This document shows positions 35,629 to 62,373 of a stretch of 64,000 bases of DNA, in pieces. The stretch comes from Luteibacter jiangsuensis (GTDB lineage Bacteria > Pseudomonadota > Gammaproteobacteria > Xanthomonadales > Rhodanobacteraceae). The notes beneath the pieces are model-generated. The model was not told the origin of the DNA, searched no databases, and saw only the letters and a program-made list of their open reading frames with translations. Positions within the stretch are counted from its first letter, which is position 1. Each line of letters opens with the position of its first letter. Location: positions 1 through 64,000 of the forward strand of contig NZ_JAAQQR010000008.1 of the NCBI RefSeq assembly GCF_011742555.1. The letters run 5' to 3'. The translations under genes and the position numbers were made by a program.

Positions 35629-35726
35629 GCCGTCCCCTCGCCAATTGAAACTCTTCGGACGCACGGCAGCGCGAGAAGGTTTAGCGATGGCGTCGACCTG
35701 CCAAGGACGGAAGACAAATTGCAGGG

Positions 35727-36635: not shown

Positions 36636-38183
36636 ATGGAGTTGCACTGCCGGTCAGTGTTGCGTGCGTGTGCGCGCATCGTTCTTGCCGTCGCGTTCTG
36701 CGGCGTCGCCGTCCTCGGCGGATGTACCTCGGTTCCTTCGCGCAGTCCTATCGCGCCGAGAGATGCCGACGGTGCCGTCTTCTTCAAGGTGACGGACAAC
36801 TACGCGCTGGAGGCGTGGGAGCTGCCGAGCGCATTCCTCGCTGTCAGGCGGGTCGCCGATGCGGCTAGCCCGGCGACTCCCTGTTACTGGTTGCGACCCG
36901 GGCGGCGGGGACTCGCCGGATCCACCTTCCTTGCCGGCGCATTGCCGCCCGGCACATACGAGTTTCCCAACTTGGGCCTTCCCGGGGAGAAACTGGGCTC
37001 GGGATGTGACCACCATGGCCCGGCTACCGCTCGCTTCTCCGTTGCGCGCGGCCGGCTGACCTACCTTGGAGTCTGGACACAGGAGAAGGCGAGCGGAAAT
37101 CAACAGGCTATCGCGGTCGTTGACGACGGAGAGCGGGCACACCTCGAGCAATCGGTGCCGGGCGAGTTTCCGGAGCTTGCGCGTCTCGTCGGACAGCCAC
37201 CTCTCGGCTTCCTGACACCCAAGAGCGCGGACCAGAACGAGAAGATCACGCAGCAAGTCGTCCGCCGAGGATTCGACACCGATGCCCGCGCGGAAGGCGC
37301 ATCGGGAACCTGGTTCTACGGCACCCGGACGGGCGCCGTGCGGCGCTGGCGTGAAGGCGAGAGCGCCGCTCCGGCCGTGGATACCGGCTACAGGGTTTCT
37401 ATCGAAGCCATTGCGGTGCTGAGCGACAATAGCGTGCTCGCCGGTGGCGAACAGTCCACGCTGCTCCTGTCGCAGGACCAGGGCGCCACGTGGACAACGC
37501 TTGATGTACCCCTTCCGTACGGCGTGATTTTCGGCTTGGCCGTCTACAGGAACGATGTTGTCCTTGCGCTGCTGGACAAAGATGACATCCACATCTATCG
37601 CAGCGGCGCATCCCTTGCGTCCTGGAAAGAGGTCGCCGGCTTCCACACCGAATTCGCATTCTTCTCTGGCGTGCCCAATATCAGGCCGGCTGCATTCGTC
37701 AGCGGCAGCAGCTTGGTGATATCCCTGCCTTCGCGTCACATGGCAATCTACGACATGGCGACGGGCGCGAGTGATACGCGCGATCTCCCCGGCGCTATCC
37801 AGCTGTTCGGCATGAGCGGCGACGGGGCGCTGCATTGCAAATGCGCACCGGTGATCATTACGAACCCGTACGAGAGCCACGACCTGGGCAAGACCTGGGC
37901 CGCCTCGACTCACGACCGTTATTCGTTGATCCCTGCGATGCGTGACCAGACCACGGGCATGGTATGGACCAAGGACGGCATCGATCGCACGCGCGACGGT
38001 GGGCACACGTGGGCACGCGTATCGCGGCCTAGCGGAGCGTTAGTCAACCTGTTCTATTCGCGGGACGGAAAACAGGCCTTCGCCACCGACGGCTTCAGCA
38101 TGTGGCAAAGCACTGATGACGGCGGAACATGGACGCGGGCCTTCAGGCCCAGCGCATCCGGCACCGGACTTCTCACGCGGTGA
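36636..38183 (+). CDS. lipoprotein with BNR/Asp-box beta-propeller repeats
   Basis: 515 residues. The ATG follows AGGGGAA. The signal ends in a lipobox (VAVLGGCTS). The C-terminal two thirds contain at least four Asp-box motifs (S/T-x-D-x-G-x-T-W type): SQDQGATWTTL, SHDLGKTWAAS, TRDGGHTWARV and STDDGGTWTRA. These mark beta-propellers such as sialidases, Ycf48-like factors and glycan-binding proteins. No sialidase FRIP motif or Glu/Tyr dyad is evident, so it is probably a binding or scaffold propeller on the membrane. It has no same-strand partner. Confidence 0.72.
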   Translation: MELHCRSVLRACARIVLAVAFCGVAVLGGCTSVPSRSPIAPRDADGAVFFKVTDNYALEAWELPSAFLAVRRVADAASPATPCYWLRPGRRGLAGSTFLAGALPPGTYEFPNLGLPGEKLGSGCDHHGPATARFSVARGRLTYLGVWTQEKASGNQQAIAVVDDGERAHLEQSVPGEFPELARLVGQPPLGFLTPKSADQNEKITQQVVRRGFDTDARAEGASGTWFYGTRTGAVRRWREGESAAPAVDTGYRVSIEAIAVLSDNSVLAGGEQSTLLLSQDQGATWTTLDVPLPYGVIFGLAVYRNDVVLALLDKDDIHIYRSGASLASWKEVAGFHTEFAFFSGVPNIRPAAFVSGSSLVISLPSRHMAIYDMATGASDTRDLPGAIQLFGMSGDGALHCKCAPVIITNPYESHDLGKTWAASTHDRYSLIPAMRDQTTGMVWTKDGIDRTRDGGHTWARVSRPSGALVNLFYSRDGKQAFATDGFSMWQSTDDGGTWTRAFRPSASGTGLLTR

Positions 38184-38302: not shown

Positions 38303-39883
38303 TTACTGGCGACGCATGACGGAATTCGAGATAAGGCCGTGCCTGTCGAGCTGGATGAACACCTGCTGCGCGCCGTGTTCGTGTTGAACGTCGTAGATAT
38401 CCCAGCCGTAATCCGTCACACCTTCGAACTTATAGGACTGCACCGGGCCGAGGTGCGCGAGGTAGTTCCCTACCTGCGCGTGGTTGCGTGCGAAGATCCG
38501 TGCGGCTGCGGGGTCCAGTCCCTCGTTGCCTTCCGGATTGGTCAGAATGCGGCGCAGCGCTTTCTCGCTGTCGGGGAAGGGTTTCTGTACCTTGACCCTC
38601 TCCGCGAGATCGGCGCGAATCCTTTCCGCCGTTGCCCTATCGACACGAGGCGCGTCGATGGCGACATTGCCGTGCTCGCGCACCACCACGGATGCGACCC
38701 GGCCATCGGCCCCTTTCACGAAATCGAGCGTGACATCGATCGCCGGCACGGCGAATTCATGCTCGCCAACGGCGGAAACGGCGATCGTACCCTGTGCCAG
38801 AAACTGGCCGATCGGCGTCACGGTCAGCCCATTCTCCTTGCGCTCCACCGTCAGCAGCGAATAGTCGCTGAGCGCATAGAAGCCGGCGTAGGTATCAAGG
38901 ATGGCTGGATCCACTGCAGGCGCATGGGTGGCGGGCTGTCCGGGCGATTCCGGCGGCGTCACCTGCGCGGCAAACACCGCCATGCCTAGCGCGAGGCTGA
39001 TCATGGCGAAAGCCGAAGCTCGTGCCCATTTGCGCGGTGTGGAAAGCATGATCCTTATCCTCCGCTCGAGAAACGATTTCGATTCGGACATCGCCGTCAC
39101 CGCGGCCACGTACTCGGACTGGTTCTGGCCAACCTGGATCAGGGTTTCGCAGTAGTCGCGGACGTCGCCGCCTTCGCGCAGCACTCGCGCATCGCAATCG
39201 ACTTCGATGGCGCAACGCAGGCGGTGGAACTGCCACCAGAGCAAAGGGCTCCATGGCATCGAGACGAGGAGAGCCATCGCCACCGCGACAAGCAGGGGAT
39301 CGCGTGCAGCCAGGTGCGATTGCTCATGGGCCATGATGTAGCGCTGCTGTGCGGGCGATTCTTCGAGCACCCACGCCGGTATCACCACGCGCGATCGCAC
39401 CAGACCGACGACGGCGGGGCCGACGTCATCAGAAACGAGCACCGGCACGCCATACGCGGTGCCCGGCGTCCAGCGACGCTTGCGCCGGTGGAACACCATC
39501 GTGGTCACGCCCAGGAACAGCAGCAGCGTGCACGAACTCGCCAGCCAGATGTCCGTCAGCATCGTGTCGATGCGTGGCGAGGACGCGTAGGACGTCGCCC
39601 CGCTCCAATCGATCGCCTTGGCGGCAAGCGGAATCGACGTGGTGGCGCCCAGCAACAGGGGTTCCGCGGCCCCCTTGGCCGTCGCGGATGCTTCGGACGA
39701 CACCCACGACCGCGGTATGGAAACCGTTGCCATGGCAACCGGCAAGGCGATCGATGTCGCTATCGCCGCGATCCAGACGCCACGGGTGGGCAGGCGGCGA
39801 TGCTTCGCGGCCTGTTCGGCCAACAGCGCGGCGCCGCCGAACACCGCGGCGACGAGGACGGCGTAGACCATCCAGGCAAGCAT
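38303..39883 (-). CDS. BlaR1/MecR1-like M56 metallopeptidase without a penicillin-binding domain
   Basis: 526 residues. The ATG at 39883 shares its A with the blaI stop (TGATG). N-terminal membrane segments are followed by the M56 zinc motif H186-E-Q-S-H190 (IMAHEQSHLAARDP) and another membrane helix near 275. True BlaR1 ends in a beta-lactam-binding domain with STxK and KTG motifs; none are visible here. Instead there is a DUF3471-like module (LDTYAGFYALSDYSLLTVER) and a tail with a SYKFEGVTDYGWDIYDVQHE segment. On some signal it should cleave or inactivate the BlaI-type repressor. Confidence 0.82.
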   Translation of the reverse strand: MLAWMVYAVLVAAVFGGAALLAEQAAKHRRLPTRGVWIAAIATSIALPVAMATVSIPRSWVSSEASATAKGAAEPLLLGATTSIPLAAKAIDWSGATSYASSPRIDTMLTDIWLASSCTLLLFLGVTTMVFHRRKRRWTPGTAYGVPVLVSDDVGPAVVGLVRSRVVIPAWVLEESPAQQRYIMAHEQSHLAARDPLLVAVAMALLVSMPWSPLLWWQFHRLRCAIEVDCDARVLREGGDVRDYCETLIQVGQNQSEYVAAVTAMSESKSFLERRIRIMLSTPRKWARASAFAMISLALGMAVFAAQVTPPESPGQPATHAPAVDPAILDTYAGFYALSDYSLLTVERKENGLTVTPIGQFLAQGTIAVSAVGEHEFAVPAIDVTLDFVKGADGRVASVVVREHGNVAIDAPRVDRATAERIRADLAERVKVQKPFPDSEKALRRILTNPEGNEGLDPAAARIFARNHAQVGNYLAHLGPVQSYKFEGVTDYGWDIYDVQHEHGAQQVFIQLDRHGLISNSVMRRQ

Positions 39884-40257
39884 CAGGGCTTGTCCTTGTC
39901 GGTCCCTTCCGCCAGCAACTTGCGCATGCGCGCGATCTGTTCGGGGGTGAGCTTCTGGTCCGAGACGAGGTGCGTGAACAGCAACTCCGCGGAGCCCTTG
40001 AACAGCTTGTCCGTCAGGTGCTGCAGCGCGTTCTTGCGCGCCGCCTGCTGTTTCACGCTGGCGAAATAGCGGTGCCCTCGCCCTTCCTCTTCGTAGCCGA
40101 CATAACCCTTCGCCTGCAACGTGCGCAGCACGGTAAGCACCGTGGTGTAGGCAAGCTTGTCGGTCAGGCGCTCGCGTACCTCCGACACCAGCGAGGGGCC
40201 GTGGTCCCACAGCACCTGCATGATGTCCGCCTCGCGGTCGGTGAGCGAGATCTTCAT
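39883..40257 (-). CDS. BlaI/MecI/CopY-family transcriptional repressor
   Basis: 124-residue winged-helix repressor (SLTDREADIMQVLWDHGPSL, then LAYTTVLTVLRTLQAKGYV), with a C-terminal dimer part that contains the protease-sensitive region. It represses its own operon until the M56 partner inactivates it. The operator just upstream (40280-40297) has the expected TAGTAG half-sites. It is co-transcribed with the M56 protease gene through a TGATG overlap. Confidence 0.92.
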   Translation of the reverse strand: MKISLTDREADIMQVLWDHGPSLVSEVRERLTDKLAYTTVLTVLRTLQAKGYVGYEEEGRGHRYFASVKQQAARKNALQHLTDKLFKGSAELLFTHLVSDQKLTPEQIARMRKLLAEGTDKDKP

Positions 40258-40279
40258 GGCCGCATTCCTCGAACGCTAT

Positions 40280-40297
40280 CTACTAGATATGTAGTAG
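40280..40297. promoter_or_regulatory. BlaI-type operator
   Basis: Perfect dyad CTACTA-GATATG-TAGTAG, 23 bp upstream of the repressor's start codon. BlaI/MecI proteins recognise TACTA/TAGTA-type half-sites, so this is very likely the autoregulatory operator. Confidence 0.8.
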
Positions 40298-40411
40298 GGA
40301 TAGTCCAGCGGGGAACACATGTCAACTATGCTTTTAGTGGAGGACCCGCAGCGCCATGCGGGCGGCCATGACTGGCGTGGGTGTTCCCGCGCCAGTAATG
40401 GTCTCAGCGCC

Positions 40412-41185
40412 TCACAGCGGCCTCACCCAAATGTTCCGGAAGCTGATCGGCTGCGAGTGATCGCCATGCGCCTGCAGCTTGATGGGCGCATCGGTATAGG
40501 CCTTGTACTTGGGCTTACCGATGTAGAAGGTTTCGCCGGTGAGCTCGGTGTGGTTCTGCACGAGCACGCCGTTATGGAACAGCGTGACGTATGCCGGCGA
40601 CTTGACCGAGCCGTCGGCGGCGAAGACCGGAGCCGTCCACACGATGTCGTAGGTCTGCCATTCGCCGGGGCGGCGTGCGGCGTTCACGAGGGGAGCGGCC
40701 TGCTTATAGATGCTCGCGGCCTGTCCGTTGACGTAGGTCTTGTTCTCGAACGAATCCATGATCTGGACTTCGTAGCCTTCGTCGCCGGGGCCGGTCGAGG
40801 CAAGGAACACGCCGCTATTGCCGCGGCCCTGCCCTTCGCCGGTGATGTCCTTCGGAATCTGCCACTCCAGGTGCAGCTGGTAGCTGCGGAAGCGCTGCTT
40901 CGTCTGGATGTTGCCGGTGGTCTTGTCCACCGTGACCACGCCCTCGTGCACCTTCCAGCGTGCCGGCGAATGATCTTTCGAAGCTTCCCAGCGGGAAAGA
41001 TCGCGACCGTCGAAAAGCACCACGGCATCGGAGGGCGGCGCGTTTTCCTTCGCGCCCGGCGTGACGACCTTGGGTACCGGTTCCCACTGCTCCGTGGCTT
41101 TCGGATCGTCCTGCGCGGATGCGCCCGCGGAACCGGCCATCGAGATGGCAAAAACGGCGAGGGCTGTCGAGGTGAGGTGCTTCAT
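40412..41185 (-). CDS. DUF1080 / 3-keto-disaccharide hydrolase family protein
   Basis: 257 residues from the ATG at 41185. A Sec signal (KHLTSTALAVFAISMAGSAG, cleaved near SAQ) exports it to the periplasm. The DUF1080 concanavalin-like domain shows VLFDGRDLSRWEASK, FRSYQLHLEWQIPK, GNSGVFLAS, GYEVQIMDSFEN and ISFRNIWVRPL. DUF1080 proteins are now known to cleave 3-keto-glycosides. It is the last gene of an eight-gene operon with a GMC oxidoreductase that would make the 3-keto substrate. Confidence 0.88.
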   Translation of the reverse strand: MKHLTSTALAVFAISMAGSAGASAQDDPKATEQWEPVPKVVTPGAKENAPPSDAVVLFDGRDLSRWEASKDHSPARWKVHEGVVTVDKTTGNIQTKQRFRSYQLHLEWQIPKDITGEGQGRGNSGVFLASTGPGDEGYEVQIMDSFENKTYVNGQAASIYKQAAPLVNAARRPGEWQTYDIVWTAPVFAADGSVKSPAYVTLFHNGVLVQNHTELTGETFYIGKPKYKAYTDAPIKLQAHGDHSQPISFRNIWVRPL

Positions 41186-41205
41186 CGGCGCTCCTGGAGT
41201 GAATG

Positions 41206-42117
41206 TCATACCGCGCAAATCTTGAATGCCTCGGCGAACGAGGCAAAGGGGTCCGGGCCGGCGGGCATGAATTCATGCGCGATGAAGCCCTGGAAATTCA
41301 GGTCCGCGATGGCGGTGGCGATGGCGCGGTAGTTGAGTTCCTGCGTGCCGTCGATCTCGTGGCGACCCGGAACGCCGCCGGTGTGGAAGTGACCGAGCCA
41401 CTGGAAGTTATCGCGGATGGTGCGGATCACGTCGCCTTCCGAGATCTGCATATGGTAGATGTCGTAGAGCAGCTTCACGCTGGGCGAGTTCACGCCCTTG
41501 CACACCGCCACGCCGAACGCCGTGTGGTCGCCCTGGTAGCCGTGGTGGTCCACCTTGCTATTCAGCAGCTCCACATGGAGCGTGATCCCGTTCTCTTCCG
41601 CGTACGGCGCGATCTTCGACAACCCGGCGACGCAGTTATCGATGGCCTGCTTGTCGTCGATGCCTGCCGTGCGGTTGCCGAACATGGTGATCAGGTTCTT
41701 CACGCCGGCACGCTTCGCGAGGGGAATCGTGGTTTCGATTTCCTTGATGAGCGTGGCGTGGTTCTTCGGATCGTTGAACCCCATCGTGATGAAGTTTTCG
41801 CGCTTGGCGGGATACCCCATGGACACGGCCAGGCCGTGGTCCGTCACCACCGACCACTCGTCCGTATAGAGCAGGTCCACGCCGGCGAAACCCATGGCCT
41901 TCAGGCGCTTGCACAGTTCGGGTAGCGGCGCCTTGGACGTCCAGCGGCTGAGCGACTGCTTCAGGCGACCTGGGCCGGCCTTGCCCGACGCGGCCTTGCC
42001 GGCGGTCGTATCGGCCGAGGCGATCAGCGGTGCCGCGCCGAGCGCGGCGGCGGCCGTGGCGAGATGCCCCAGCATGGCGCGACGGCGGTTGTCGGGAAGG
42101 TTGTCCGATGTGGTCAT
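41206..42117 (-). CDS. sugar phosphate isomerase/epimerase-like TIM barrel with Tat signal
   Basis: 303 residues. The N-terminal twin-arginine signal is NRRRAMLGHLATAAAALGAA. A xylose isomerase-like barrel follows, with metal-ligand segments HVELLNSKVDHHG, LYDIYHMQISEGD and the closing GFIAHEFMP. It resembles hydroxypyruvate isomerase-type proteins. In this operon it may epimerise or isomerise a keto-sugar in the periplasm. It starts within the stop of the gene at 42114 (4-base overlap). Confidence 0.83.
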   Translation of the reverse strand: MTTSDNLPDNRRRAMLGHLATAAAALGAAPLIASADTTAGKAASGKAGPGRLKQSLSRWTSKAPLPELCKRLKAMGFAGVDLLYTDEWSVVTDHGLAVSMGYPAKRENFITMGFNDPKNHATLIKEIETTIPLAKRAGVKNLITMFGNRTAGIDDKQAIDNCVAGLSKIAPYAEENGITLHVELLNSKVDHHGYQGDHTAFGVAVCKGVNSPSVKLLYDIYHMQISEGDVIRTIRDNFQWLGHFHTGGVPGRHEIDGTQELNYRAIATAIADLNFQGFIAHEFMPAGPDPFASFAEAFKICAV

Positions 42118-43169
42118 TCGAGCCCCAGGATGGTGCGGTTGAAGGCACGGTCACTGCCGCTCGAAGCGAAATCGTCGAAAGCGCGCTCGGTGACCTTGAT
42201 GATGTGCTTGCGAATGAACGGCGCACCTTCCATCGCGCCCTGCTGTGAATCCTTGATGCAGCACTCCCACTCGAGCACCGCCCAGCCGGGATAGTCGTAC
42301 TGCGCCAGCTTGCTGAAGATCGCGCCGAAATCGATCTGCCCGTCGCCCAGCGAACGGAAGCGTCCCGGCCGGTCGATCCAGCCCTGGTAGCCGCCATACA
42401 CGCCCGAGCGGCCGTTGGGCCGGAACTCGGCGTCCTTCACGTGGAAGGCGCGGATGCGCTCGTGGTAATTGTCGATGAACTGCAGGTAATCCATCTGCTG
42501 CAGCACCATGTGGCTCGGGTCGAAAAGGATGTTGGCGCGGGGATGGTGATCCACCGCATCGAGGAACCGCTCGAAGGTAGCGCCGTCGTGCAGGTCTTCC
42601 CCGGGATGCAGTTCGTAGCAGACGTCCACGCCCACTTCGTCGAACGCATCGAGAATCGGCTTCCAGCGCCGGCCCAGTTCCGCGAACGCTTCCTCGACCA
42701 GCCCGGCCGGACGCTGCGGCCACGGATAGAACAGGTGCCAGGCCAGCGCTCCGGAGAACGTGGCGTGGGCCGTCAGGCCCAGGTTGCTGCTTGCCTTGGC
42801 CGCCAGCTTCAGCTGCTGCACTGCCCATGCCTGGCGCTCGCGTGCATTGCCGCGCAGCGCAGGGGGAGCGAAGCCGTCGAACAGGCGGTCGTACGCCGGA
42901 TGTGATGCGACCAGCTGCCCTTGCAGATGGGTGGACAACTCGGTGACCACCAGCCCGTGCTCGGCGAGCGTGCCGGCAATGTCGTCGCAATACGTCTTGC
43001 TCTGCGCCGCCTGCTCCAGGTCGAACAGGCGGGTATCGTTGGACGGAATCTGCACGCCCACGAAACCGAGCGACGATGCCCAGCGCGCGATCGACGGCAG
43101 CGTGTCGAACGGTGCCTCGTCCGATGCGTACTGGGCAAGGAAGATGCCTGGGCCCTTGAGTGTCTTCAT
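42114..43169 (-). CDS. sugar phosphate isomerase/epimerase-like TIM barrel, cytoplasmic
   Basis: 351 residues without a signal peptide. The xylose isomerase-like barrel shows FVGVQIPSNDTRLFDLE, DVCYELHPGEDLHDG, ILFDPSHMVLQQMDY, AFHVKDAEF and a final GWAVLEWECCIKD; these supply the Glu/Asp/His metal ligands. It is longer than its two operon paralogues and lacks the Tat signal, which suggests a cytosolic step. The gluconate 2-dehydrogenase subunit 3-type gene ends 1 bp upstream. Confidence 0.85.
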   Translation of the reverse strand: MKTLKGPGIFLAQYASDEAPFDTLPSIARWASSLGFVGVQIPSNDTRLFDLEQAAQSKTYCDDIAGTLAEHGLVVTELSTHLQGQLVASHPAYDRLFDGFAPPALRGNARERQAWAVQQLKLAAKASSNLGLTAHATFSGALAWHLFYPWPQRPAGLVEEAFAELGRRWKPILDAFDEVGVDVCYELHPGEDLHDGATFERFLDAVDHHPRANILFDPSHMVLQQMDYLQFIDNYHERIRAFHVKDAEFRPNGRSGVYGGYQGWIDRPGRFRSLGDGQIDFGAIFSKLAQYDYPGWAVLEWECCIKDSQQGAMEGAPFIRKHIIKVTERAFDDFASSGSDRAFNRTILGLE

Positions 43170-43170
43170 G

Positions 43171-43761
43171 TCAGATCTTCAGTGACGTCTCGACAGCCCA
43201 GGCCTTGCCGTTGCCTGCCTGCTTCAACGGGATGTCGCCCTTCCAGGCGCCCGGCACCGGATCGTACTGGAGCACCTGCGTGCAGCCCGGCTGCGAGAGG
43301 AAGAAACCGAGCATCGCGAGCTTCTTGCTCATCAGCACGAAGTCGGCTTCGGGCGCGAGCTTGCTGTCCTTGGGCGCCGTGACGGCTTCATTGTGCAACC
43401 GGGTTACCAGCGCGGTGCGCTGGGTGGGGTCGAGTTGCATGAACGGCTTGCCGCCCGCCTTGTCGAAGGCCGCCATGGCGGTGAGGTAGCGCGTCTGCTC
43501 CTCCTTCGTGTACACCGCTTCGAACATCTGGTCGATGAAGAGCGGCACACCCGCGTCCACCGCGCCCGGCGTGTCGGTGCGCGGAATCACGATGTCCGAT
43601 ACGGCACCGATCAGACCGTACTGCGCAGGCTTGAAGAACTGCGGTGTCTTACCCGACGCCTGTGAAGCCGCGTGCGCCTCCAACACGGCCAGCAACGAGG
43701 GCGCCGCGAGGGCTCCCACGGCCAGCGCGGACATGCTTTTCAACCATTCGCGACGATTCAT
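43171..43761 (-). CDS. gluconate 2-dehydrogenase subunit 3 family protein (small subunit of glycoside 3-dehydrogenase)
   Basis: 196 residues with a clear Tat signal (NRREWLKSMSALAVGALA). The body matches the gluconate 2-dehydrogenase subunit 3 family: AVSDIVIPRTDTPGAVDAGV, then FIDQMFEAVYTKEEQTRYL. In glucoside 3-dehydrogenases this small subunit escorts the folded GMC subunit through the Tat pathway. It follows the GMC gene by 12 bp, so the pair forms the dehydrogenase. A cytochrome c subunit, common in other species, is absent here. Confidence 0.9.
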   Translation of the reverse strand: MNRREWLKSMSALAVGALAAPSLLAVLEAHAASQASGKTPQFFKPAQYGLIGAVSDIVIPRTDTPGAVDAGVPLFIDQMFEAVYTKEEQTRYLTAMAAFDKAGGKPFMQLDPTQRTALVTRLHNEAVTAPKDSKLAPEADFVLMSKKLAMLGFFLSQPGCTQVLQYDPVPGAWKGDIPLKQAGNGKAWAVETSLKI

Positions 43762-43773
43762 GGGTTCGATTCC

Positions 43774-45465
43774 TCAGATGTTGCCGCGCTTCAGTTCTTC
43801 CACGGCGTGGCTGGCCGCACGTGCGGTCAACGCCATGTAGGTCAGGGACGGGTTCTGGCAACCGGAAGAAGCCATGGCCGAACCGTCGGTGATGTACACA
43901 TTCTTGCAGGCGTGCATCTGATTCCAGCCGTTGAGCACCGAGGTCTTCGGATCGCGGCCCATGCGCGCGGTGCCCATCTCGTGGATGCCGGCGCCGACAT
44001 TGGCCGGGATGCTGAACGAATTCACGTCGCGATAGCCCGCGGCGGTCATCATCTCCATGGCATCTTCGATGATCGCCTTGGTGATCATGCGCTCGTTTTC
44101 CTGATGCGCCGCGTCGAAGTTCAGAACGGGCAGGCCATATTTGTCTTTGTGATTCCTGTCCAGCGTCACGTAGTTCTTGTGCGAGGGAAGCATCTCGCCG
44201 AAGCCCATCATCGAGACGTACCACGGGCCCGGCTCCTGCGCGGCCTGCTTGAGCTCCGCGCCCAGCGCCTTGTCGTCGACCAGTCGGGTCCAGTCCTGAC
44301 GGCCGGCGCCACCCTGGTAGCCGAACCCGCGCAGATACTTCTGCTTGTCGCTGCCGATGTTGCGGTAACGCGGAATGTAGAAGCCGTTGGGGCGGCGACC
44401 GGAGTAGTAGCGGTCCTCATGGCCTTCGACCATGGCGCGCGCGCCGTTGCCGAAGATGTGATCCATGATGTTGTGGCCCAACTCGCCGCTGTCGTTGCCG
44501 AAACCGTTAGGGAAGCGGCTGGAGGTGGAGTTCATCAGGATGTGCGTGGTGCCGAAGGTCGAGGCGCACATGAAGATCACACGCGCGAAGTACTCGGTCT
44601 GGTGGCCCGTCTCGGCGTCCAGCACACGCACGCCGGTGGCCTTGCCCTTGTCGTTGTCGTAGATCAGTTCGTAGACGATGGCATTGGTCACCATGGTCAT
44701 GTTGCCCGTGCGCTCGGCGGACGGCAGCGTGGAGGAATTGCTGCTGAAATACCCGCCAAACGGACAACCGCGCATGCACAGGTTGCGGTACTGGCAGGTG
44801 CCGCGCTGCGGGCTCTGGTCGTGCTTCAGCGGCGCCGAAAGATTGGCGGTGCGGCCGATGATGAGCTTGCGGTTGAACTTCGTGTCCAGCTTGCCCTGGA
44901 AGTCCTTCTCCACGCAGTTGAGTTCCATCGGCGGCAGGAAGTCGCCGTCCGGAAGCTGCGCGAGGTGGTCGTTGTTGCCGCTGACGCCGATGAAGTGTTC
45001 AACGTAGTCGTACCAGGGCGCGAGATCCTTGTAGCGGATCGGCCAATCCACGCCCACGCCTTCCTTGCCGTTGGCCTCCAGGTCCATCTCGCTCAGGCGG
45101 TAGCTCTGCCGTCCCCACATGAGCGAGCGGCCGCCGACGTGGTAGCCGCGGAACCAGTCGAAGGGTTTCGTCTCCTCATACGGATTGTCGATGTCGTCGA
45201 CGAACCAGTGCTTGGTGGACTGCGTGATGCCGTAGAACGACGGACGCGTGTGCTTGGGCCAGCGGGCAATGTCTGCCTGGGTCGGCTCGTCGCCATAAGG
45301 CAGTTCCCAGGGCGCCTTCATGGCCGTGGGGTAGTCCAGGTGCTTCACCATGGGGCCGCGGTCGAGCACGAGTGTCTTGAGGCCTTTCTCGGTCAGTTCC
45401 TTGGCGGCCCAGCCGCCACTGACACCGGTACCGACGACGATGGCGTCGAATGTGTTCTTTTCCAT
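43774..45465 (-). CDS. GMC family FAD oxidoreductase (glycoside 3-dehydrogenase large subunit)
   Basis: 563 residues from the ATG at 45465, after GGGAAAGG. The FAD-binding motif is VVGTGVSGGWAAKELTEKG, and the C-terminal catalytic region contains GIHEMGTARMG (His) and NPSLTYMALTARAA (Asn). A Cys pair, RNLCMRGCPFGG, is conserved in this subgroup. It has no signal of its own and would be exported with the Tat-bearing subunit 3 encoded next. The family includes glucoside 3-dehydrogenase and lactose-oxidising enzymes. Sugar oxidation at C3 is inferred from the operon. Confidence 0.9.
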   Translation of the reverse strand: MEKNTFDAIVVGTGVSGGWAAKELTEKGLKTLVLDRGPMVKHLDYPTAMKAPWELPYGDEPTQADIARWPKHTRPSFYGITQSTKHWFVDDIDNPYEETKPFDWFRGYHVGGRSLMWGRQSYRLSEMDLEANGKEGVGVDWPIRYKDLAPWYDYVEHFIGVSGNNDHLAQLPDGDFLPPMELNCVEKDFQGKLDTKFNRKLIIGRTANLSAPLKHDQSPQRGTCQYRNLCMRGCPFGGYFSSNSSTLPSAERTGNMTMVTNAIVYELIYDNDKGKATGVRVLDAETGHQTEYFARVIFMCASTFGTTHILMNSTSSRFPNGFGNDSGELGHNIMDHIFGNGARAMVEGHEDRYYSGRRPNGFYIPRYRNIGSDKQKYLRGFGYQGGAGRQDWTRLVDDKALGAELKQAAQEPGPWYVSMMGFGEMLPSHKNYVTLDRNHKDKYGLPVLNFDAAHQENERMITKAIIEDAMEMMTAAGYRDVNSFSIPANVGAGIHEMGTARMGRDPKTSVLNGWNQMHACKNVYITDGSAMASSGCQNPSLTYMALTARAASHAVEELKRGNI

Positions 45466-45475
45466 GCCTTTCCCT

Positions 45476-46351
45476 TCAGCGCAGCGGGCGCAGGTAGTCG
45501 AAGTCGACGCGCGCGGCGTCAAGAGAGCTCATGCGGGCGAACGGCCCCTCCTGTTCGACGAAGCAGTGCTTCAGTCCGGAGGCGTCGGCAGCCGCCATGA
45601 TCGGTTTGTAGTCGAGTTCGCCGCGGCCGAGTTCGGCCCCGGGATAGTCCGTGCGATGGCCCGGCAGAAAATCCTTCGCGTGCATCAGCGGAATGCGCCC
45701 GGGGTTGGCCTTGAAGTAATCGGCCGGATTCTTGCCGCCGGCAGCGACCCAGCCGCAGTCGAGCTCGAACTGCACGAGCGACTTGTCGGTTTCCTTCAGC
45801 AGCACGTCGTAGAACACCTGGCCACCGCCGACGTCGGTAAACTCGAGATGATGGTTGTGGTACGCATAGCGGAGGCCAGCCTTGCGGGCCTTCTCGCCCA
45901 GGCGGTTGGCGTATTCGGCGGTGCGCTTGGCTTCGTCGAGCGAATACTTGGGCTCGCCCGACGTCTTCCCTTCCTTCTGCATGATCGACGGCAGCATGCT
46001 GCTCACGATGTACGTGGCGCCCAGCGTATGCGCCGCTTCCACGCCTTTGTCGAAGCCGAGGCTGTCGAAGTGCATGCTCGGGCAAGCCAGCCCGGCTTCC
46101 TTCAGCTGGTCGCGCAGGACCTCGGCCGTGCTGGTGATGATGGCCTCGATCTCGGCGTAGCCGATCGACTTCAGGGTCTTGAGCGTGCCGGCCGGATCTT
46201 TCTGGTAGGCGTCGAGCACCATGTAGAGCTGGATGCCCATCGTCTTACCCTTCGTCGCGGCGGCGAGGAGCCGGCCCGGGGCGGCAAGACCGACCCCCAG
46301 CGCCGCGCCACACAGGGCGGAGCGCGCAAGGAACTGCCTGCGATTCATCAT
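45476..46351 (-). CDS. sugar phosphate isomerase/epimerase-like TIM barrel with Tat signal, second copy
   Basis: 291 residues. The Tat signal is NRRQFLARSALCGAALGVGL. The barrel shows MGIQLYMVLDAYQKDP, RYAYHNHHLEFTDV, LVQFELDCGWVAAGG, IPLMHAKDF and a final KHCFVEQEGPF, which supply the metal ligands. The HNHHLEF and ELDCGWV segments are common in periplasmic keto-sugar isomerases of Gfo/GMC operons. It differs from the copy at 41206 enough to suggest another substrate. Confidence 0.86.
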   Translation of the reverse strand: MMNRRQFLARSALCGAALGVGLAAPGRLLAAATKGKTMGIQLYMVLDAYQKDPAGTLKTLKSIGYAEIEAIITSTAEVLRDQLKEAGLACPSMHFDSLGFDKGVEAAHTLGATYIVSSMLPSIMQKEGKTSGEPKYSLDEAKRTAEYANRLGEKARKAGLRYAYHNHHLEFTDVGGGQVFYDVLLKETDKSLVQFELDCGWVAAGGKNPADYFKANPGRIPLMHAKDFLPGHRTDYPGAELGRGELDYKPIMAAADASGLKHCFVEQEGPFARMSSLDAARVDFDYLRPLR

Positions 46352-46369
46352 GAAAGGGTCTCCGGAAGA

Positions 46370-47575
46370 TCAGGGGGTGCCGACGACGGCGGCCGTTGCG
46401 GTGGCTTTGCGGTCCTTGAACAACAGGACGAAAAGGGCGAAGACGAAGGCGGCGAATGCGCCGGCGATGATCCAGATGGCGTGCCAGTCGTGCGTCGCAT
46501 CGGCACGCGTATAGGTCTGCACCACGATGCCGGATAGCCACGAGCCGACGAACATGCCGAGGCCATAGGTCAGGAACGTGATGAGCCCCTGTGTGGCCGC
46601 GCGCAACGCCGGAGGCGCTTCGCGGTCGATGTAGATCTGGCCCACCACGAAGAAAAAGTCGAAGCAGACGCCGTGCAGGACAATACCGAGCCACAGCATC
46701 CACATGAGTTCGCCGGTGCCGCCGAAGGCGAAGAGGCCATAGCGCACCACCCAGGCCAGCATGCCCACGGCCAGCATCCACTTCACGCCCAGGCGGCGGA
46801 AGAACCAGGGAATGAGGAGCATGAAGAACAGCTCCGACATCTGGCCGCCGGTCATCTTGCCCGCGGCATTCACCACGCCGGCTTCGTTGAGGAAGAGGTT
46901 GGTGAAGGCGTAGTAGAACTGCAGCGGGATACAGATGAGGAAAGAGGCCAGCGCGAACACCGCCATGGAGCGCTCGCGGAGCAGGTGCAGGGACTCCAGC
47001 GGCAGCACGTGTCGCCATTCGAAACGGGTGTTGCGTGCCAGCGGCGGCGTCGGCGGCAGGGTGAAGCAGTAGCCCGCCAGCACCACCGAGAGGGCGGCGG
47101 CGAGAAGGAGCGGCGATGCGGTCGCTTCCACGCCCCATGCGCCGACGGCCAGGCCCACGACGATCCAGCCGATGCTGCCGAACACGCGGATGGCACCGAA
47201 CTCTTCCTGGGGATCCTTGATGTGCCGCATGGCCAGCGAGGCGGTGAGCGCCAGGGTGGGCATGTAGCAGAGGCTGTAGGCCAACAGGGGAATGTAAACG
47301 GCCACGAAGGTGGTCTGTTGCGCCGCGACCGCGAGCAATACCGCGCCGAGGAGGTGCAGCAGGGTGAGCACGCGGCGCGTGTCGAACAGGCGGTCGGCAA
47401 GCAGTCCCACGAACAGCGGCGAGATGATCGCGCCCACGGCGGTGGTGCCCGCGACGGCGCCGATCTCGGTACCGGTGAAGTGCAGCGTCTTGCCGAGCCA
47501 GGTGCCGACCGTGACGTACCACGCGCCCCAGATCCCGAACTCGAACAGCATCATCGTTCTAAGGCGCCACTTCAT
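46370..47575 (-). CDS. MFS permease of the nucleoside:H+ symporter type
   Basis: 401 residues, about 12 membrane helices. It has the NupG/XapB-like pattern: LRTMMLFEFGIWGAWYVTVG at the start, SPLFVGLLADRLFDTRRVL, and LHGVCFDFFFVVGQIYIDRE near helix 10. Members of this branch in sugar operons probably carry keto-sugars or glycosides rather than nucleosides. The ATG at 47575 overlaps the stop of the Gfo/Idh gene (ATGA), so the two are translationally coupled. Confidence 0.85.
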   Translation of the reverse strand: MKWRLRTMMLFEFGIWGAWYVTVGTWLGKTLHFTGTEIGAVAGTTAVGAIISPLFVGLLADRLFDTRRVLTLLHLLGAVLLAVAAQQTTFVAVYIPLLAYSLCYMPTLALTASLAMRHIKDPQEEFGAIRVFGSIGWIVVGLAVGAWGVEATASPLLLAAALSVVLAGYCFTLPPTPPLARNTRFEWRHVLPLESLHLLRERSMAVFALASFLICIPLQFYYAFTNLFLNEAGVVNAAGKMTGGQMSELFFMLLIPWFFRRLGVKWMLAVGMLAWVVRYGLFAFGGTGELMWMLWLGIVLHGVCFDFFFVVGQIYIDREAPPALRAATQGLITFLTYGLGMFVGSWLSGIVVQTYTRADATHDWHAIWIIAGAFAAFVFALFVLLFKDRKATATAAVVGTP

Positions 47576-48762
47576 CCGCGTTTCCTCGTTGTGCGTTTGG
47601 TTTCGAGCGGGTTCTCGACCGGTTGCCACAGGCCGCCGGCGGCGTGGCTCTTCAGCATCGCGTCCACCAGCAGGCTGTTGCGGTAGCCGTCGGCGAAGGT
47701 GGGCAGCGCGACCGGCTTCGCTTCCGGGCGGGCGCCGCCGCGGATCCAGGCATACGCATCGGCGATCACGTTTCGGAACGCATCCGCCCATGCCTCCGGG
47801 TGCCCGGCCGGCAGGTGGGCATAGCCTCGGGCGGAAGGATCCAGCAGCGAGGGATCGCGCGTGAGCACGGTGTTCGCCTTCGCGTGATGCCCGATCCAGA
47901 GCTCGTTGGGCTGTTCCTGGCGCCACGCCAGCGAACCTTCGCGGCCGTTCACTTCCAGCCGGAGATCGTTCTTGTGGCCGGGGAGCACCTGGCCCACGGT
48001 GACGCAGCCGCGCGCGCCGTTGTCGAACCGCAGCAGCACGCTGGCCAGGTCTTCGCTGGTGATCTTGCGGCGCTTGCCGGCGGTCTTCGCCGCCCCGGCA
48101 AAGGCTTTCGCCGAAGCCGCCGGCGCTTCGCGCTCGGGCACCACCGTGTGCAGGTCGGCCAGCACGGCGACGATGCGGGCACCGGTCACGTGTTCGGCCA
48201 GGTCGCACCAGTGCGAGCCGATGTCCCCCAGCGCGGAACTGGCGCCCCCCAGCTTGGGATCGAGGCGCCACGTATACGCGCGCTCGTCGGTGAGCCAGTC
48301 CTGCAGGTAGCAACCGTGCACGAACACGCTCTGGCCGATCTTGCCCTTGGCGATCATCGCCCGCGCCTGTTGCACGAGCGGGTAGCCGCGGTAGTTGAAC
48401 GTGACGACATGCGCGACGTTCGCGGTCTGCGCGGCTTCATGAAGTTCGCGCGCCTCCGGCATCGTGGCCGCGAGGGGCTTGTCGGAAATCACGTGCTTCC
48501 CGGCGCGCAACGCCGCCAGCGAGACTTCCCGGTGCAGGTGGTTCGGCGTGGTGTTGTGCACGACGTGCACGGCGGGATCGGCGAGCAGCTCGCGATAGCC
48601 CGCATACGCCTGCCCGGCGTTCAGTTCGCGGGCCCGCTTTTTCGCGGATTCGAGGCTGGAACCGGCGATGCCGACGACCTCGACGTTGCCCAGACGCCGC
48701 ACGGCGTCGAGATGGTGCGCGGCGATGAAGCCCGGACCGACGAGTCCCATGCCGAGCTTCAT
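47572..48762 (-). CDS. Gfo/Idh/MocA family oxidoreductase, first gene of the glycoside operon
   Basis: 396 residues. The Rossmann motif is GLVGPGFIAAHHLDAVRRLG, followed by the typical VVHNTTPNHLHREVSLAALR and HVISDKPLAATMPEARE, with the catalytic Lys in DKPLA. It has no signal peptide, so it acts in the cytoplasm, probably to reduce or oxidise a keto-sugar with NAD(P). It is the first gene of the operon. Its start codon lies 75 bp from a LacI-type operator (48837-48852), and the LacI gene is divergent. Confidence 0.9.
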   Translation of the reverse strand: MKLGMGLVGPGFIAAHHLDAVRRLGNVEVVGIAGSSLESAKKRARELNAGQAYAGYRELLADPAVHVVHNTTPNHLHREVSLAALRAGKHVISDKPLAATMPEARELHEAAQTANVAHVVTFNYRGYPLVQQARAMIAKGKIGQSVFVHGCYLQDWLTDERAYTWRLDPKLGGASSALGDIGSHWCDLAEHVTGARIVAVLADLHTVVPEREAPAASAKAFAGAAKTAGKRRKITSEDLASVLLRFDNGARGCVTVGQVLPGHKNDLRLEVNGREGSLAWRQEQPNELWIGHHAKANTVLTRDPSLLDPSARGYAHLPAGHPEAWADAFRNVIADAYAWIRGGARPEAKPVALPTFADGYRNSLLVDAMLKSHAAGGLWQPVENPLETKRTTRKRG

Positions 48763-48836
48763 CGATCGGTGGTCCTGGCGCTTGTCGAAACCGACTGGCT
48801 TGCCATGTCTTCCCCCGACGGCCCTGCGCCGTCGAA

Positions 48837-48852
48837 ATGTATTCGATTACAT
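48837..48852. promoter_or_regulatory. LacI-type operator O1 (operon side)
   Basis: 16-bp near-palindrome ATGTATTCGATTACAT, 74 bp before the start of the Gfo/Idh gene. It is almost the same as O2 at 48980-48995 and has the central CG-like core often bound by LacI-family regulators. It probably blocks transcription of the eight-gene operon. Confidence 0.75.
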
Positions 48853-48979
48853 CCGCGTTCCTTCGAAGATCGAAAGTCCTTCCCCGGCGCGGATTCGTAA
48901 GTTCCCCCGGGTACCTGCTCGCAGGCTCCCCGAACATGCCAAGATGTAGCAGATGGGTGAAGAAGCCTGCAACGGTTTT

Positions 48980-48995
48980 ATGTAATCCATTACAT
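48980..48995. promoter_or_regulatory. LacI-type operator O2 (regulator side)
   Basis: 16-bp near-palindrome ATGTAATCCATTACAT, 75 bp before the GTG of the LacI gene. It is 143 bp centre-to-centre from O1. Two operators at this spacing allow a DNA loop and coupled control of both divergent transcripts. Confidence 0.75.
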
Positions 48996-49070
48996 TGCAG
49001 CGCAGCATATTCACACGCAACGCCAGGACGTTGTCCGGCGCGTGCTCGGTCAGGCAAAGGATGGAAACGG

Positions 49071-50156
49071 GTGAGCGCAAGGGGATCAAGGCGAAAAGGA
49101 CAGGGAGGCGATGGCCCGCGCAGCGATGTTGCGCCGCAGCCCGTACGCGTGCGCACGGTCAAGGAAATTGCCGCCATCGCAAATGTTTCGGTGGCAACTG
49201 TTTCGCGGGCACTGCAACGCCCCGAGGTTGTCAGCGAGGAAACGCGCCGGCGCATCCATGAGGTTGTGAAGCGTCTGGGCTACACGCCGAACGCCATGGC
49301 GCGCAATCTGCGTACGGCACGAACGCGCCTCGTGGTCGCCCTGCTCCCCGACATTGCCAATCCGTTCTTTTCGGAGGTCATCCGCGGCATCGAGCAGGTC
49401 GCTTACGAGAACGGGTATTCCGTGCTGCTGGGCGAAACGCAGAGCAGCCTCGTGCGCGAACAGTCGTATGCCGACATGGTCGCAGCCCGCCAGGCGGACG
49501 GCATCATCACCATGTTCCATCGCGTGCCGCCGATTCCCGTGGAAGGCCGGCTACCGGTCGTCAACGCGTGCGAATACGTGAAGGACAGCAGCATTTCGAG
49601 CGTCTACGTGGACAACGTCGCGGCCGCCAGCGCCGCCGTCGATTACCTTGTGACCCTTGGGCATCGCGACATCGCCTTCGTGGCCGGCCCCGCCACGAGC
49701 CCGATCTGCGTCGACCGCGAGCAGGGCTATCGGCTCGCATTGCAGCGGGCGGACATCCCCGCCAATCCCGCGCTCGTCGCCGTGGGCGACTTTTCCATCG
49801 AAGCCGGCGAGCGCGCGGTCGAGCTGCTGCTCTCGCAAGGCCAGTCGTTCAGCGCGGTGTTCTGCTCCAACGACGAAATGGCCATCGGCGCGATGCGCGC
49901 CCTGCTCTCCCGCGGGCTGCGCATCCCCGAAGACGTGTCGGTCGTCGGTTTCGACGACATCCGCTTTTCCCGCTACACCTCGCCCGCATTGACCACCGTC
50001 TCGCAGCCGAAGACCGCGCTGGGACGCGAAGCCATGACGATGCTGATCGAGATACTCAACGATCCGGAGGTACCGCCGCGCAAGCGGGTGCTGTCCGCCG
50101 AACTGGTGGTACGCGGGTCGACCGGGCCCCGCGGACGGGGCCCGGGCGCGCGCTAG
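49071..50156 (+). CDS. LacI family transcriptional regulator
   Basis: 361 residues from the GTG at 49071. The HTH is TVKEIAAIANVSVATVSRAL, with the hinge RRIHEVVKRLGYTPNAMARN, then a periplasmic-binding-protein-like effector domain (LVVALLPDIANPFFSEVIRG to VSVVGFDDIRFSRYTSPALT). A start at the GTG 49149 would place the HTH at the extreme N-terminus, which is also common in this family. It faces the eight-gene operon and has matching operators on both sides of the intergenic region, so it should control the operon in response to a sugar. Confidence 0.92.
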   Translation: MSARGSRRKGQGGDGPRSDVAPQPVRVRTVKEIAAIANVSVATVSRALQRPEVVSEETRRRIHEVVKRLGYTPNAMARNLRTARTRLVVALLPDIANPFFSEVIRGIEQVAYENGYSVLLGETQSSLVREQSYADMVAARQADGIITMFHRVPPIPVEGRLPVVNACEYVKDSSISSVYVDNVAAASAAVDYLVTLGHRDIAFVAGPATSPICVDREQGYRLALQRADIPANPALVAVGDFSIEAGERAVELLLSQGQSFSAVFCSNDEMAIGAMRALLSRGLRIPEDVSVVGFDDIRFSRYTSPALTTVSQPKTALGREAMTMLIEILNDPEVPPRKRVLSAELVVRGSTGPRGRGPGAR

Positions 50157-51733
50157 AGCGTCCACCCCGCGCGATAGTCGCGGCGCAGGAACTGGTTGGC
50201 GTCCGCCAGGTTGGTGATGCGCATGTTCTGAGCGTCGTACTCGATCCTGTGGCCCGCGCGCAGCGCCACCACGCCCAGCAGCATGATCTCGGTCAGCTGC
50301 GCGGCATAGGAGAACGGAGAGGATGCCTCTGCTTTCCCCTTGCAGGCATCCACCCAGTTCATCTCGTGCGAGGTCTTGATACGCGCGTACTTCTGCGGAG
50401 GCGTGCCCACGGAATCGTGCAGCGATTGCGGCAGCAGTCGGGGGTTGTCGCCGTACGTCTCGTGGATCAGCTTGCCCTTCGTGCCGACGTAGAGGACACC
50501 GCCGTCCTTCATCTGGCCGGCGCCCATCGCCTCCAACCCGGGCGGCAGCAACGCGCCGTCGTACCAGGTGAGCCGCACCGGCGGCATGCTGCCACGCGCG
50601 GGGAAGTCGAAATAGGTCATCGTCGCCATGGGGTACGACTCGTTGTTGAACGGTGTCGAGACCGTCTCCACGGACGTCGGAAGACCCAGGTTGAGCGACC
50701 AGAACGGCGAATCGATGAGGTGAGCACCCATGTCGCCGATGGCGCCCACGCCCCAATCCACCCACCCGCGCCAGTTGAACGGGTGATACAGCGGGTGGTA
50801 TTCGATCACCGGACCGGGGCCGAGGAAGAGATCCCACTCCAGACCCTGCGGTTTCGGATAGTTGCCGGCCATCGCGTTGGCGAGGCGGGCCATCACCGCG
50901 TCCATGTCCCAGCTCGTGGCAGCCGGCTGCTGCACGGGCCGGGGACGCGGAATGCCCTGCGGCCAGTAAGCCAGCGGACGGTTGGTCCAGGCGTGCACTT
51001 CGCGCACTTCGCCGATGGCACCGGCCGCGATGTATTCGTTGATCAGCCGCGCGTCGTCCGTGGAGTGCCCCTGGTTGCCCATCTGCGTGACGACACGGGG
51101 ATTTTCCTTGGCCTTCCTGGCGAGTTCGCGGGCTTCGTGGATCGACCACGTGAGCGGCTTCTGCACGTACACGTGCTTGCCGAGGCTCATCGCCGTGCTG
51201 GCGATGGTCGCGTGCAGGTGATCGGGCGTGGCGATCACCACCGCGTCGATGTCCTTCTGCTGCTCGAGCATCCGGCGAAAGTCGGTGTGGCGCTTGATCG
51301 AGCCGTACTTGCGGGAAAGCAGCTTCGTCAGCTCGATCTTTTCCTGCAGCTTCTTCCGCTCCGCCGGCGTCTGCGCACGTGCGAGACGGGCCTGTGTCTC
51401 GCCCAGGCCGGCGAACATCTTCTGGAAGGATCGATCCGTGTAGCCCCAGTCCACGTCGCAAAGGGCAACGATGTTCTCGCCGGCCAGCGCGAGCATGTTC
51501 TGCCCGCCCATGCCGCCGACACCGATGCCCGCGATGTTCAAGCGGTCGCTGGGGGCGGTAAAGCCCGTGCCGCCGAGCACGTGACGGGGCACGATCATCA
51601 GCCCCGTGGCGGCGAGCGCCGTGCCTGCGATGAAGTTCCGGCGGGAGAGCTTGACGCCCGCCTCCCCGTCTGCGGCGGTCGCCCCGGAAGCGGGACCCAG
51701 GTTCTGATTCTCGATCTTCGATTTGTCCGACAT
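50153..51733 (-). CDS. Gfo/Idh/MocA family oxidoreductase with Tat signal
   Basis: 526 residues from the ATG at 51733. An N-terminal Tat motif (LSRRNFIAGTALAATGLMIV) predicts export as a folded, cofactor-loaded enzyme. The Rossmann motif is IAGIGVGGMGGQNMLA, followed by AVVIATPDHLHATIASTAM and the catalytic Lys in YVQKPLTWSIHEARE. A large C-terminal domain (WDLFLGPGPVIEYHPLYHPF) matches the long Tat-exported Gfo/Idh class, which often holds its NAD(P) tightly. Its 3' end overlaps the LacI gene end by 4 bases (convergent). Confidence 0.9.
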   Translation of the reverse strand: MSDKSKIENQNLGPASGATAADGEAGVKLSRRNFIAGTALAATGLMIVPRHVLGGTGFTAPSDRLNIAGIGVGGMGGQNMLALAGENIVALCDVDWGYTDRSFQKMFAGLGETQARLARAQTPAERKKLQEKIELTKLLSRKYGSIKRHTDFRRMLEQQKDIDAVVIATPDHLHATIASTAMSLGKHVYVQKPLTWSIHEARELARKAKENPRVVTQMGNQGHSTDDARLINEYIAAGAIGEVREVHAWTNRPLAYWPQGIPRPRPVQQPAATSWDMDAVMARLANAMAGNYPKPQGLEWDLFLGPGPVIEYHPLYHPFNWRGWVDWGVGAIGDMGAHLIDSPFWSLNLGLPTSVETVSTPFNNESYPMATMTYFDFPARGSMPPVRLTWYDGALLPPGLEAMGAGQMKDGGVLYVGTKGKLIHETYGDNPRLLPQSLHDSVGTPPQKYARIKTSHEMNWVDACKGKAEASSPFSYAAQLTEIMLLGVVALRAGHRIEYDAQNMRITNLADANQFLRRDYRAGWTL

Positions 51734-62356: not shown

Positions 62357-62373
62357 GCCCAGGATCTGCTTAC

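Follow-up and report, generated by a model that had tools for sequence, protein, structure and literature searches.

A 64-kb stretch of the Luteibacter jiangsuensis genome (contig NZ_JAAQQR010000008.1, positions 1 to 64,000, hereafter called the window) carries on its minus strand, at 40412-48762, an operon of eight genes, numbered here 1 to 8 in their order on that strand, which is real, conserved and regulated. It is likely to be a catabolic operon, controlled by a LacI-family protein, for the oxidation, elimination, hydration and reduction of a glycoside, with the steps divided over two compartments. In the periplasm the GMC oxidoreductase of gene 4 and its subunit 3 (gene 5) would oxidise C3 of the sugar, and the TIM barrel protein of gene 3 and/or the DUF1080 protein of gene 8 would split the resulting 3-keto-glycoside, gene 3, as relatives with shown activity suggest, by β-elimination to the leaving group and a 2-hydroxy-3-keto-glycal. 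The company of genes suggests that the major facilitator superfamily (MFS) protein of gene 2 takes in the glycal and/or the 3-keto-hexose. In the cytoplasm, going by their relatives, the gene 6 protein would add water as a hydratase and the gene 1 protein would reduce the 3-keto-hexose to hexose. The exported gene 7 protein may act on a keto-sugar in the manner of an epimerase or isomerase. This oxidise-eliminate-hydrate-reduce route is a recently worked-out alternative to glycosidases, and the locus would be a compact, dedicated and regulated version of it in a gammaproteobacterial genus. An earlier, sequence-only reading had proposed that no classical glycosidase was needed, and there is indeed none in the operon.

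Structure and conservation of the operon

The eight closely spaced minus-strand genes, which that reading had already described in this order, were confirmed by the list of open reading frames (ORFs) with their translations, by the spacings calculated from the coordinates (-4, 18, 10, 12, 1, -4 and 20 bp from gene 1 to gene 8) and by Pfam, in which all eight proteins scored above the cut-offs (Gfo/Idh/MocA; Nuc_H_symport; three AP_endonuc_2; GMC N and C; Gluconate_2-dh3; 3keto-disac_hyd, i.e. DUF1080). The third-position GC was 0.82-0.87 for the seven operon genes chosen by a simple gene-picker, which at gene 2 chose an antisense ORF. Rfam and tRNA scans of the 64-kb window gave nothing, a sigma-70 scan of 40200-49300 gave no site, and terminator-like sites occurred at the rate of shuffled sequence.

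The GMC gene was sought in 61 genomes, the window's own (G000; G numbers denote genomes and L numbers loci) and 60 others. Some match was present in 45 of them and a match of at least 82 % identity in 21, the own genome included. Of the 23 genomes of the genus, the own one among them, 19 had the GMC gene at this level, and the same 19 had the hydratase gene of at least 70 % identity, G004, G008, G019 and G020 having neither at these thresholds. Loci were fetched from 19 of the 20 other genomes with a GMC gene of at least 82 % identity, G006 being left out (contig of 25 kb). All eight genes were found in order beside a LacI gene in 17 of these 19 relatives (L038-L051, L062, L064, L066), and the identical order together with the divergent LacI gene argues that the operon is not a product of chance.

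In the other two relatives, the congeneric L063 (G012) and L065 (G013), genes 1, 2 and 6 are jointly missing, and genes 3, 4, 5, 7 and 8 and the LacI gene are kept. Homologues of genes 1, 2 and 6 lie together elsewhere in these two genomes (L067, L068; 40-42, 49-51 and 70-74 % identical to those of the window, respectively), in G012 flanked by genes for a MOSC-domain protein and a Na/H exchanger. At 40-74 % identity, these copies indicate that an older paralogous set has been replaced or relocated and that the genes have not simply moved. In L054 (G057, from another family of the order) all eight genes are present in two convergent units, 7-4-5-8 and 3-1-2-6, with the LacI gene beside the second. 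Fewer than eight of the operon families were found in L052, L053, L055-L057 and L059-L061 of the fetched set of 29 loci.

More distant homologues were taken from a scan with the GMC alignment, of whose 459 confirmed loci the best 80, hereafter called the named loci, were analysed; 27 of the 80 lack full flanks, and co-occurrence counts among them ignore shared descent. Subunit 3 was matched in 72 of these 80 loci, gene 1 in 47, gene 6 in 42, gene 2 in 37, gene 8 in 33, gene 7 in 25 and gene 3 in 22, at a threshold of 50 bits, which may have let in further superfamily members among the rows for genes 1, 3 and 7. Of the gene 7 rows, seven at 29-34 % identity and with no Tat call are suspect, leaving 18. 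All eight families were found in 8 of the best 80 of 459 loci, in two phyla (two Dyella, three Hymenobacter, one Mucilaginibacter, one Stenotrophomonas metagenome-assembled genome and one Lysobacter), six of them outside the family of the host. The Xanthomonas sacchari and Hymenobacter volaticus plasmid records likewise hold all eight together. An operon with three TIM barrels, two of them exported by the twin-arginine translocation (Tat) system, had been thought unusual, a view that this recurrence does not support. Median identities in L074-L151 (from the best 80 of 459) were 62 % for gene 6, 57 % for GMC, 50 % for gene 8, 47 % for gene 2, 43 % for gene 7, 32 % for gene 3, 31 % for gene 1 and 30 % for subunit 3.

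Flavobacterial clusters (L093, L097, L098, L119, L124, L129, L138, L145, L149) often contain two GMC genes of 55-58 % identity, approximately 6-8 kb apart, hinting at paired oxidases of different specificity.

Predicted cleavage, hydration and reduction

Structures were modelled for genes 3 and 7. The fold of gene 3 is that of the 3-keto-β-glycoside 1,2-lyases (AtOGE, AL1, BT1). Its residues H165, D198, H224 and E266 correspond to the Mn ligands H132, D163, H189 and E233 of AtOGE, and H167 to the base H134, all five being invariant in 22 sequences, and among solved proteins of known function its closest relatives bear lyase titles. Gene 3 is thus most likely a 3-keto-glycoside lyase. Gene 6 matched the solved structure 8RO4, '2-hydroxy-3-keto-glucal hydratase', end to end (residues 1-350) with 607 bits, the second-best solved match having 149 bits, and is most likely a hydratase of that specificity. 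Together, the match to 8RO4 and the residues and fold of gene 3 lead us to reject the reading of these two TIM barrels as keto-sugar isomerases.

By homology the DUF1080 protein of gene 8 is likely to be a second enzyme that cleaves 3-keto-glycosides. The cleaving role given to it in the sequence-only reading can stand, but it need not be the sole cleaving enzyme. A second DUF1080 gene of the own genome (G000:C16:230649-231278; L058 9485-10288; 146.6 bits) lies away from homologues of the operon genes, and L058 gave no operon-gene match.

Gene 3 might alternatively act as a periplasmic hydratase, in which case the DUF1080 protein would cleave, gene 3 would hydrate much of the glycal outside, the 3-keto-hexose would enter and gene 6 would finish the task inside. 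Elimination and hydration are one chemistry run in opposite directions, both performed by LgdB2 according to the passages covered on the levoglucosan pathway (PMC7676230), and the DUF1080 protein of Caulobacter is essential on lactose by the fitness data in the parts covered of Price et al. (2022, PMC9007349). The lyase titles of the closest solved relatives of gene 3 speak against such a division of labour, as does the release of the aglycone from 3-keto-phlorizin by AtOGE (PMC10628242, passages covered), and we consider it unlikely.

Gene 1 is likely to encode an NAD(P)H-dependent reductase of the 3-keto-hexose. It is not a member of the NCBIfam levoglucosan dehydrogenase equivalog (196.8 bits, cut-off 650), and gene 2 is not a plain nucleoside permease, since its score with TIGR00889 (373 bits) is below the cut-off of 446.1 and its context is one of sugar genes.

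The predicted oxidase pair and electron transfer

The best solved match of the GMC protein is the large subunit of fructose dehydrogenase. Cysteines C227, C233 and C237 (query numbering) are invariant in the alignment of 11 GMC sequences, and the fructose dehydrogenase chain also has cysteines at these positions, a region which presumably holds an iron-sulfur cluster. In flavin adenine dinucleotide (FAD)-dependent fructose and glucose dehydrogenases the GMC subunit has no signal, and a small subunit with a Tat signal carries the large one through the Tat system. By analogy, we infer the same arrangement for gene 4 and gene 5, the latter the sole PF13618 match in the own genome, so that the large subunit would be carried via Tat.

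The substrate of the pair might instead be a free sugar or polyol, like that of fructose or gluconate dehydrogenases, with the remaining genes serving a general inositol or keto-sugar catabolism, a reading that would agree with the match to fructose dehydrogenase and with the weak IolE matches of two of the barrels. This is very improbable, however, given that DUF1080, lyase and hydratase homologues accompany the GMC gene in many loci and that, in the passages covered (PMC9007349), the homologous Caulobacter cluster serves lactose use.

The third dehydrogenase component found within the cluster of Caulobacter vibrioides DSM 9893 (L112), a c-type cytochrome, is not part of the operon. No secreted CXXCH ORF (cytochrome c) was found within the 64-kb window, and a 42 % relative of the L112 cytochrome is encoded on another contig of the own genome. 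Among 19 kin loci, three have such an ORF by this test (L042, towards the end of its stretch; L046, antisense to gene 8; L066, weak), in none of them as an operon gene. All eight distant loci inspected singly have a cytochrome c gene (L112, L099, L117, L146, L150, L142, L095, L092), as do the plasmid gene tables of X. sacchari and H. volaticus; none was listed in the plasmid tables of Paracoccus and Palleronia, which are incomplete. An automatic test found a cytochrome c of any kind in 27 of the 78 named loci L074-L151 (from the best 80 of 459).

Probable position of the import step

Read from the sequence, the N-termini of gene 3 (MMNRRQFLARS), gene 5 (MNRREWLKS) and gene 7 (RRRAMLGHL, then a hydrophobic stretch) are Tat-like and that of gene 8 is Sec-like, and genes 1, 4 and 6 have no signal. 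The signal-peptide heuristic applied to the named loci over-calls 'Sec' (given to 67 of the 100 rows for GMC and to 14 of the 48 for gene 1 in the best 80 of 459), and reliance was therefore placed on Tat calls and on the N-termini of the window itself. For gene 6 the heuristic gave 'none' in 40 of 42 rows of the same loci, and 'Sec' in 17 of 66 rows when all fetched loci were taken with upstream starts allowed.

In the 53 named loci with full flanks (from the best 80 of 459), genes 1 and 6 were both present in 29, only gene 1 in 3, only gene 6 in none and neither in 21. The corresponding counts for genes 1 and 2 were 25, 7, 0 and 21, and for genes 2 and 6, 24 with both, 1 with only gene 2, 5 with only gene 6 and 23 with neither. 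In plasmids of Paracoccus liaowanqingii and Palleronia (Rhodobacterales), whose gene tables are incomplete, the genes are listed in the order LacI, hydratase, Gfo/Idh, three genes of an ATP-binding cassette (ABC) importer, gene 7, GMC, subunit 3 and DUF1080; the lyase-type barrel comes at the end in Paracoccus, on the opposite strand, and ahead of gene 7 in Palleronia. The ABC importer (Pfam BPD_transp_2 and Peripla_BP_4), which occupies the position of the MFS gene, gave its highest scores with models of xylose and ribose transporters, none of them reaching the cut-off; Palleronia has an MFS gene too, on the far side of the LacI gene.

Because the hydratase and the reductase are without export signals and keep company with an importer, import probably takes place between cleavage and hydration. 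Hydration would then probably be cytoplasmic, gene 6 having no export signal, and the imported compound an unsaturated glycal and/or a 3-keto sugar. The monosaccharide-type importer in the place of the MFS protein suggests that the compound is probably of monosaccharide size and processed inside by hydratase and reductase. The literature passages covered hold no statement on glycal import, although one may exist in print.

The overall scheme of the sequence-only reading, periplasmic oxidation at C3 by the GMC protein and subunit 3, periplasmic cleavage, import and then reduction, agrees with homology, with gene context and with the Caulobacter phenotypes in the published passages covered. The periplasmic isomerisation that it placed before import does not fit the signal-less gene 6. 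The full version of that reading, in which the DUF1080 protein hydrolyses the 3-keto-glycoside outside, the TIM barrels isomerise the keto-sugar there and the MFS protein imports the isomerised sugar for reduction, draws on the export of two of the barrels, on the resemblance of gene 7 to isomerases and epimerases, and on the terms used in the passages covered of Price et al. (PMC9007349), where the Caulobacter barrels are named 'sugar epimerases' and the DUF1080 protein a hydrolase. It appears quite improbable, since gene 6 is close to a named hydratase and has no export signal, and gene 3 matches lyases including their catalytic residues.

The exported barrel of gene 7

The metal-site residues of gene 7 are invariant in 18 sequences. 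The protein is 19 % identical to YcjR (6WN6), with which it has a common fold and the metal site of the superfamily, and other epimerases and isomerases match equally well or better. Its substrate may be a keto-sugar, on which it would act as an epimerase or isomerase after export. Gene 7 lies directly upstream of the GMC gene in 7 of its 25 loci among the best 80 of 459 and in 3 of 5 plasmid records; a Parabacteroides record has gene 7 and no GMC gene listed.

Gene 7 could epimerise 3-keto-glycosides (galacto or other to gluco), the enone 2-hydroxy-3-keto-glycal being imported and then hydrated inside. A single lyase, a single importer and a single, well-conserved hydratase would then suffice for many glycosides. 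If true, this would answer what becomes of 3-ketogalactose, a point left open in the passages covered of Price et al. (PMC9007349), but we regard the proposal as doubtful. The genome of Caulobacter locus L112, from a lactose-using species, has no gene 7 homologue, whereas all five other genomes searched had a match. This weighs against the epimerase part of the proposal and against gene 7 as an epimerase required for galactosides. The comparison across phyla singles out gene 7 as a conserved exported enzyme which can be assayed directly.

Regulator and BT2158-like dehydrogenase

The predicted functional unit is larger than the eight genes, including the LacI gene, two putative operators and often a second dehydrogenase, of the Gfo/Idh type (Table 1). 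The LacI gene, for which the best model was CytR (337.6 bits, cut-off 436), stands beside the operon in all 19 fetched relatives. In the own genome TGTAAWCGNTTACA occurs at four places when up to one mismatch is allowed: the two putative operators and two of the TGTAAACGTTTAC type. Both operators are kept in 20 of 21 kin loci, which represent 20 genomes (L051 and L073 are of the same genome), L063 having one. When 14 whole loci of 19.5 kb were scanned with at most three mismatches, 28 of the 29 matches were putative operator sites.

The Gfo/Idh protein at 50153-51733 scored 317 and 303 bits with the solved dehydrogenases 8TDF and 8TDH. It is not a member of the NCBIfam BT_2158_fam ('glycoside 3-dehydrogenase'; 472.1 bits, cut-off 750), only a relative. 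Among the fetched loci, 12 of the 17 from congeners have a homologue close to the operon (at the opposite end in L062), and the two from other genera have none there. Relatives are also present in 11 of the best 80 of 459 loci. In L092, L108, L110, L118 and L123 a BT2158-like, Tat-type Gfo/Idh gene lies between the GMC and subunit 3 genes, which suggests that two kinds of 3-dehydrogenase may cooperate.

Table 1 Features of the operon and its regulatory region (window coordinates)
Feature	Position	Strand	Basis or remark
LacI-family regulator, divergent	49149..50156	+	Start uncertain, GTG at 49149 chosen
Putative LacI operator 1, TGTATTCGATTACA	48838..48851	.	Near-palindrome between LacI gene and gene 1
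Putative LacI operator 2, TGTAATCCATTACA	48981..48994	.	Near-palindrome between LacI gene and gene 1
Gene 1, Gfo/Idh/MocA oxidoreductase, no export signal	47572..48762	-	Pfam; levoglucosan dehydrogenase model 196.8 bits; solved relatives 3V5N, 6A3F
Gene 2, MFS protein, Nuc_H_symport family	46370..47575	-	PF03825 380.6 bits; TIGR00889 373 bits
Gene 3, Tat-signal TIM barrel, candidate Mn-dependent 3-keto-β-glycoside 1,2-lyase (AtOGE/AL1/BT1 type)	45476..46351	-	Residues, fold
Gene 4, GMC oxidoreductase, LacA-like large subunit, no signal of its own	43774..45465	-	Pfam; solved matches; cysteines
Gene 5, Tat-signal subunit 3 (Gluconate_2-dh3)	43171..43761	-	PF13618
Gene 6, TIM barrel, no export signal, candidate 2-hydroxy-3-keto-glucal hydratase	42114..43169	-	8RO4 607 bits
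Gene 7, Tat-signal TIM barrel, hydroxypyruvate isomerase / ketose 3-epimerase / YcjR group	41206..42117	-	Metal-site residues
Gene 8, secreted DUF1080 protein (3keto-disac_hyd)	40412..41185	-	PF06439 150.7 bits; 4QHZ 278 bits; alternative start 41209
Tat-signal Gfo/Idh protein, BT2158-type relative, convergent with LacI, probable accessory, separate transcription unit	50153..51733	-	472.1 bits to BT_2158_fam

Neighbouring genes

Downstream of the operon, at 38303-40257 on the minus strand, lie what we take to be a BlaR1/MecR1-type sensor-like gene and a small BlaI-like regulator; BlaR homologues flank the operon in some kin, not in all. The window also encodes a protein of the alpha-N-acetylglucosaminidase (NAGLU) family with all three Pfam domains (53100-55304, +) and long ORFs with no Pfam match at E 1e-5 (36636-38183, +; 28087-29214, +; 34963-35664, -; 62200-63276, +).

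Comparison with known systems

Like LacABC/DUF1080 clusters, the operon has a GMC gene with an adjoining subunit 3 gene, a secreted DUF1080 protein nearby (66 % identical to that of L112), and a transporter, two TIM barrels and a reductase (genes 2, 3, 6 and 1). L112 holds homologues of seven of the eight operon genes (1-6 and 8) together with a LacI gene: DUF1080 66 %, LacI 45 %, MFS 31 %, Tat-TIM 33 %, Gfo/Idh 35 %, hydratase 76 %, GMC 57 % and subunit 3 34 % identical. It differs in gene order, in the small cytochrome c within the cluster and in the lack of gene 7 in the genome. In the passages covered, Price et al. (PMC9007349) describe a Caulobacter cluster acting in lactose use, whose gene content fits L112, and L112 is accordingly taken to be that cluster; on that assumption its two 'sugar epimerases' would correspond to a lyase of the gene 3 type and a hydratase. 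The cross-phylum comparison thus indicates which genes travel together, offers likely enzyme names for these two proteins and suggests at which point import takes place.

Indibacter alkaliphilus LW1 is β-galactosidase-negative and has a DUF1080 gene near its LacA, as stated in the passages covered (PMC9007349). Its locus L099 holds genes 6, 1, 2, 7, 4, 5 and 3, and a match to gene 8 was not found in the L099 stretch despite that published gene. The operon also resembles the 3-keto pathway of the BT2157-BT2160 type of Bacteroides, as far as NCBIfam and PDB titles describe it. Relatives of its DUF1080 protein, BT1-type lyase and BT2158-type dehydrogenase are all present here; unlike in Bacteroides, the operon includes an oxidase made of GMC and subunit 3, while its BT2158-like protein is encoded outside and scores below the family cut-off.

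The GlycDH/OGE/HYD/Gfo operon of A. tumefaciens (PMC10628242, passages covered) proceeds through the same four steps, oxidation, elimination by a Mn-dependent TIM barrel, hydration and reduction, and gene 3 keeps the residues of its OGE. Its GlycDH, however, is of the pyranose-oxidase family, four enzymes are named and no subunit 3 or DUF1080 protein appears in those passages, whereas gene 3 here is Tat-exported. The levoglucosan pathway LgdA/B1/B2/C (PMC7676230, passages covered) likewise has the four chemical steps and two TIM barrels, and its levoglucosan dehydrogenase is distantly related to gene 1, but that pathway starts with an NAD-linked dehydrogenase and the neighbouring importer genes are of the ABC type. 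With YcjR of E. coli, a 3-keto-D-glucoside 4-epimerase, the likeness is limited to gene 7, which, unlike YcjR, is exported. Judged by its gene content, the operon represents no new kind of system but a variant of the LacABC/DUF1080 3-ketoglycoside pathway known from Caulobacter and Bacteroidota.

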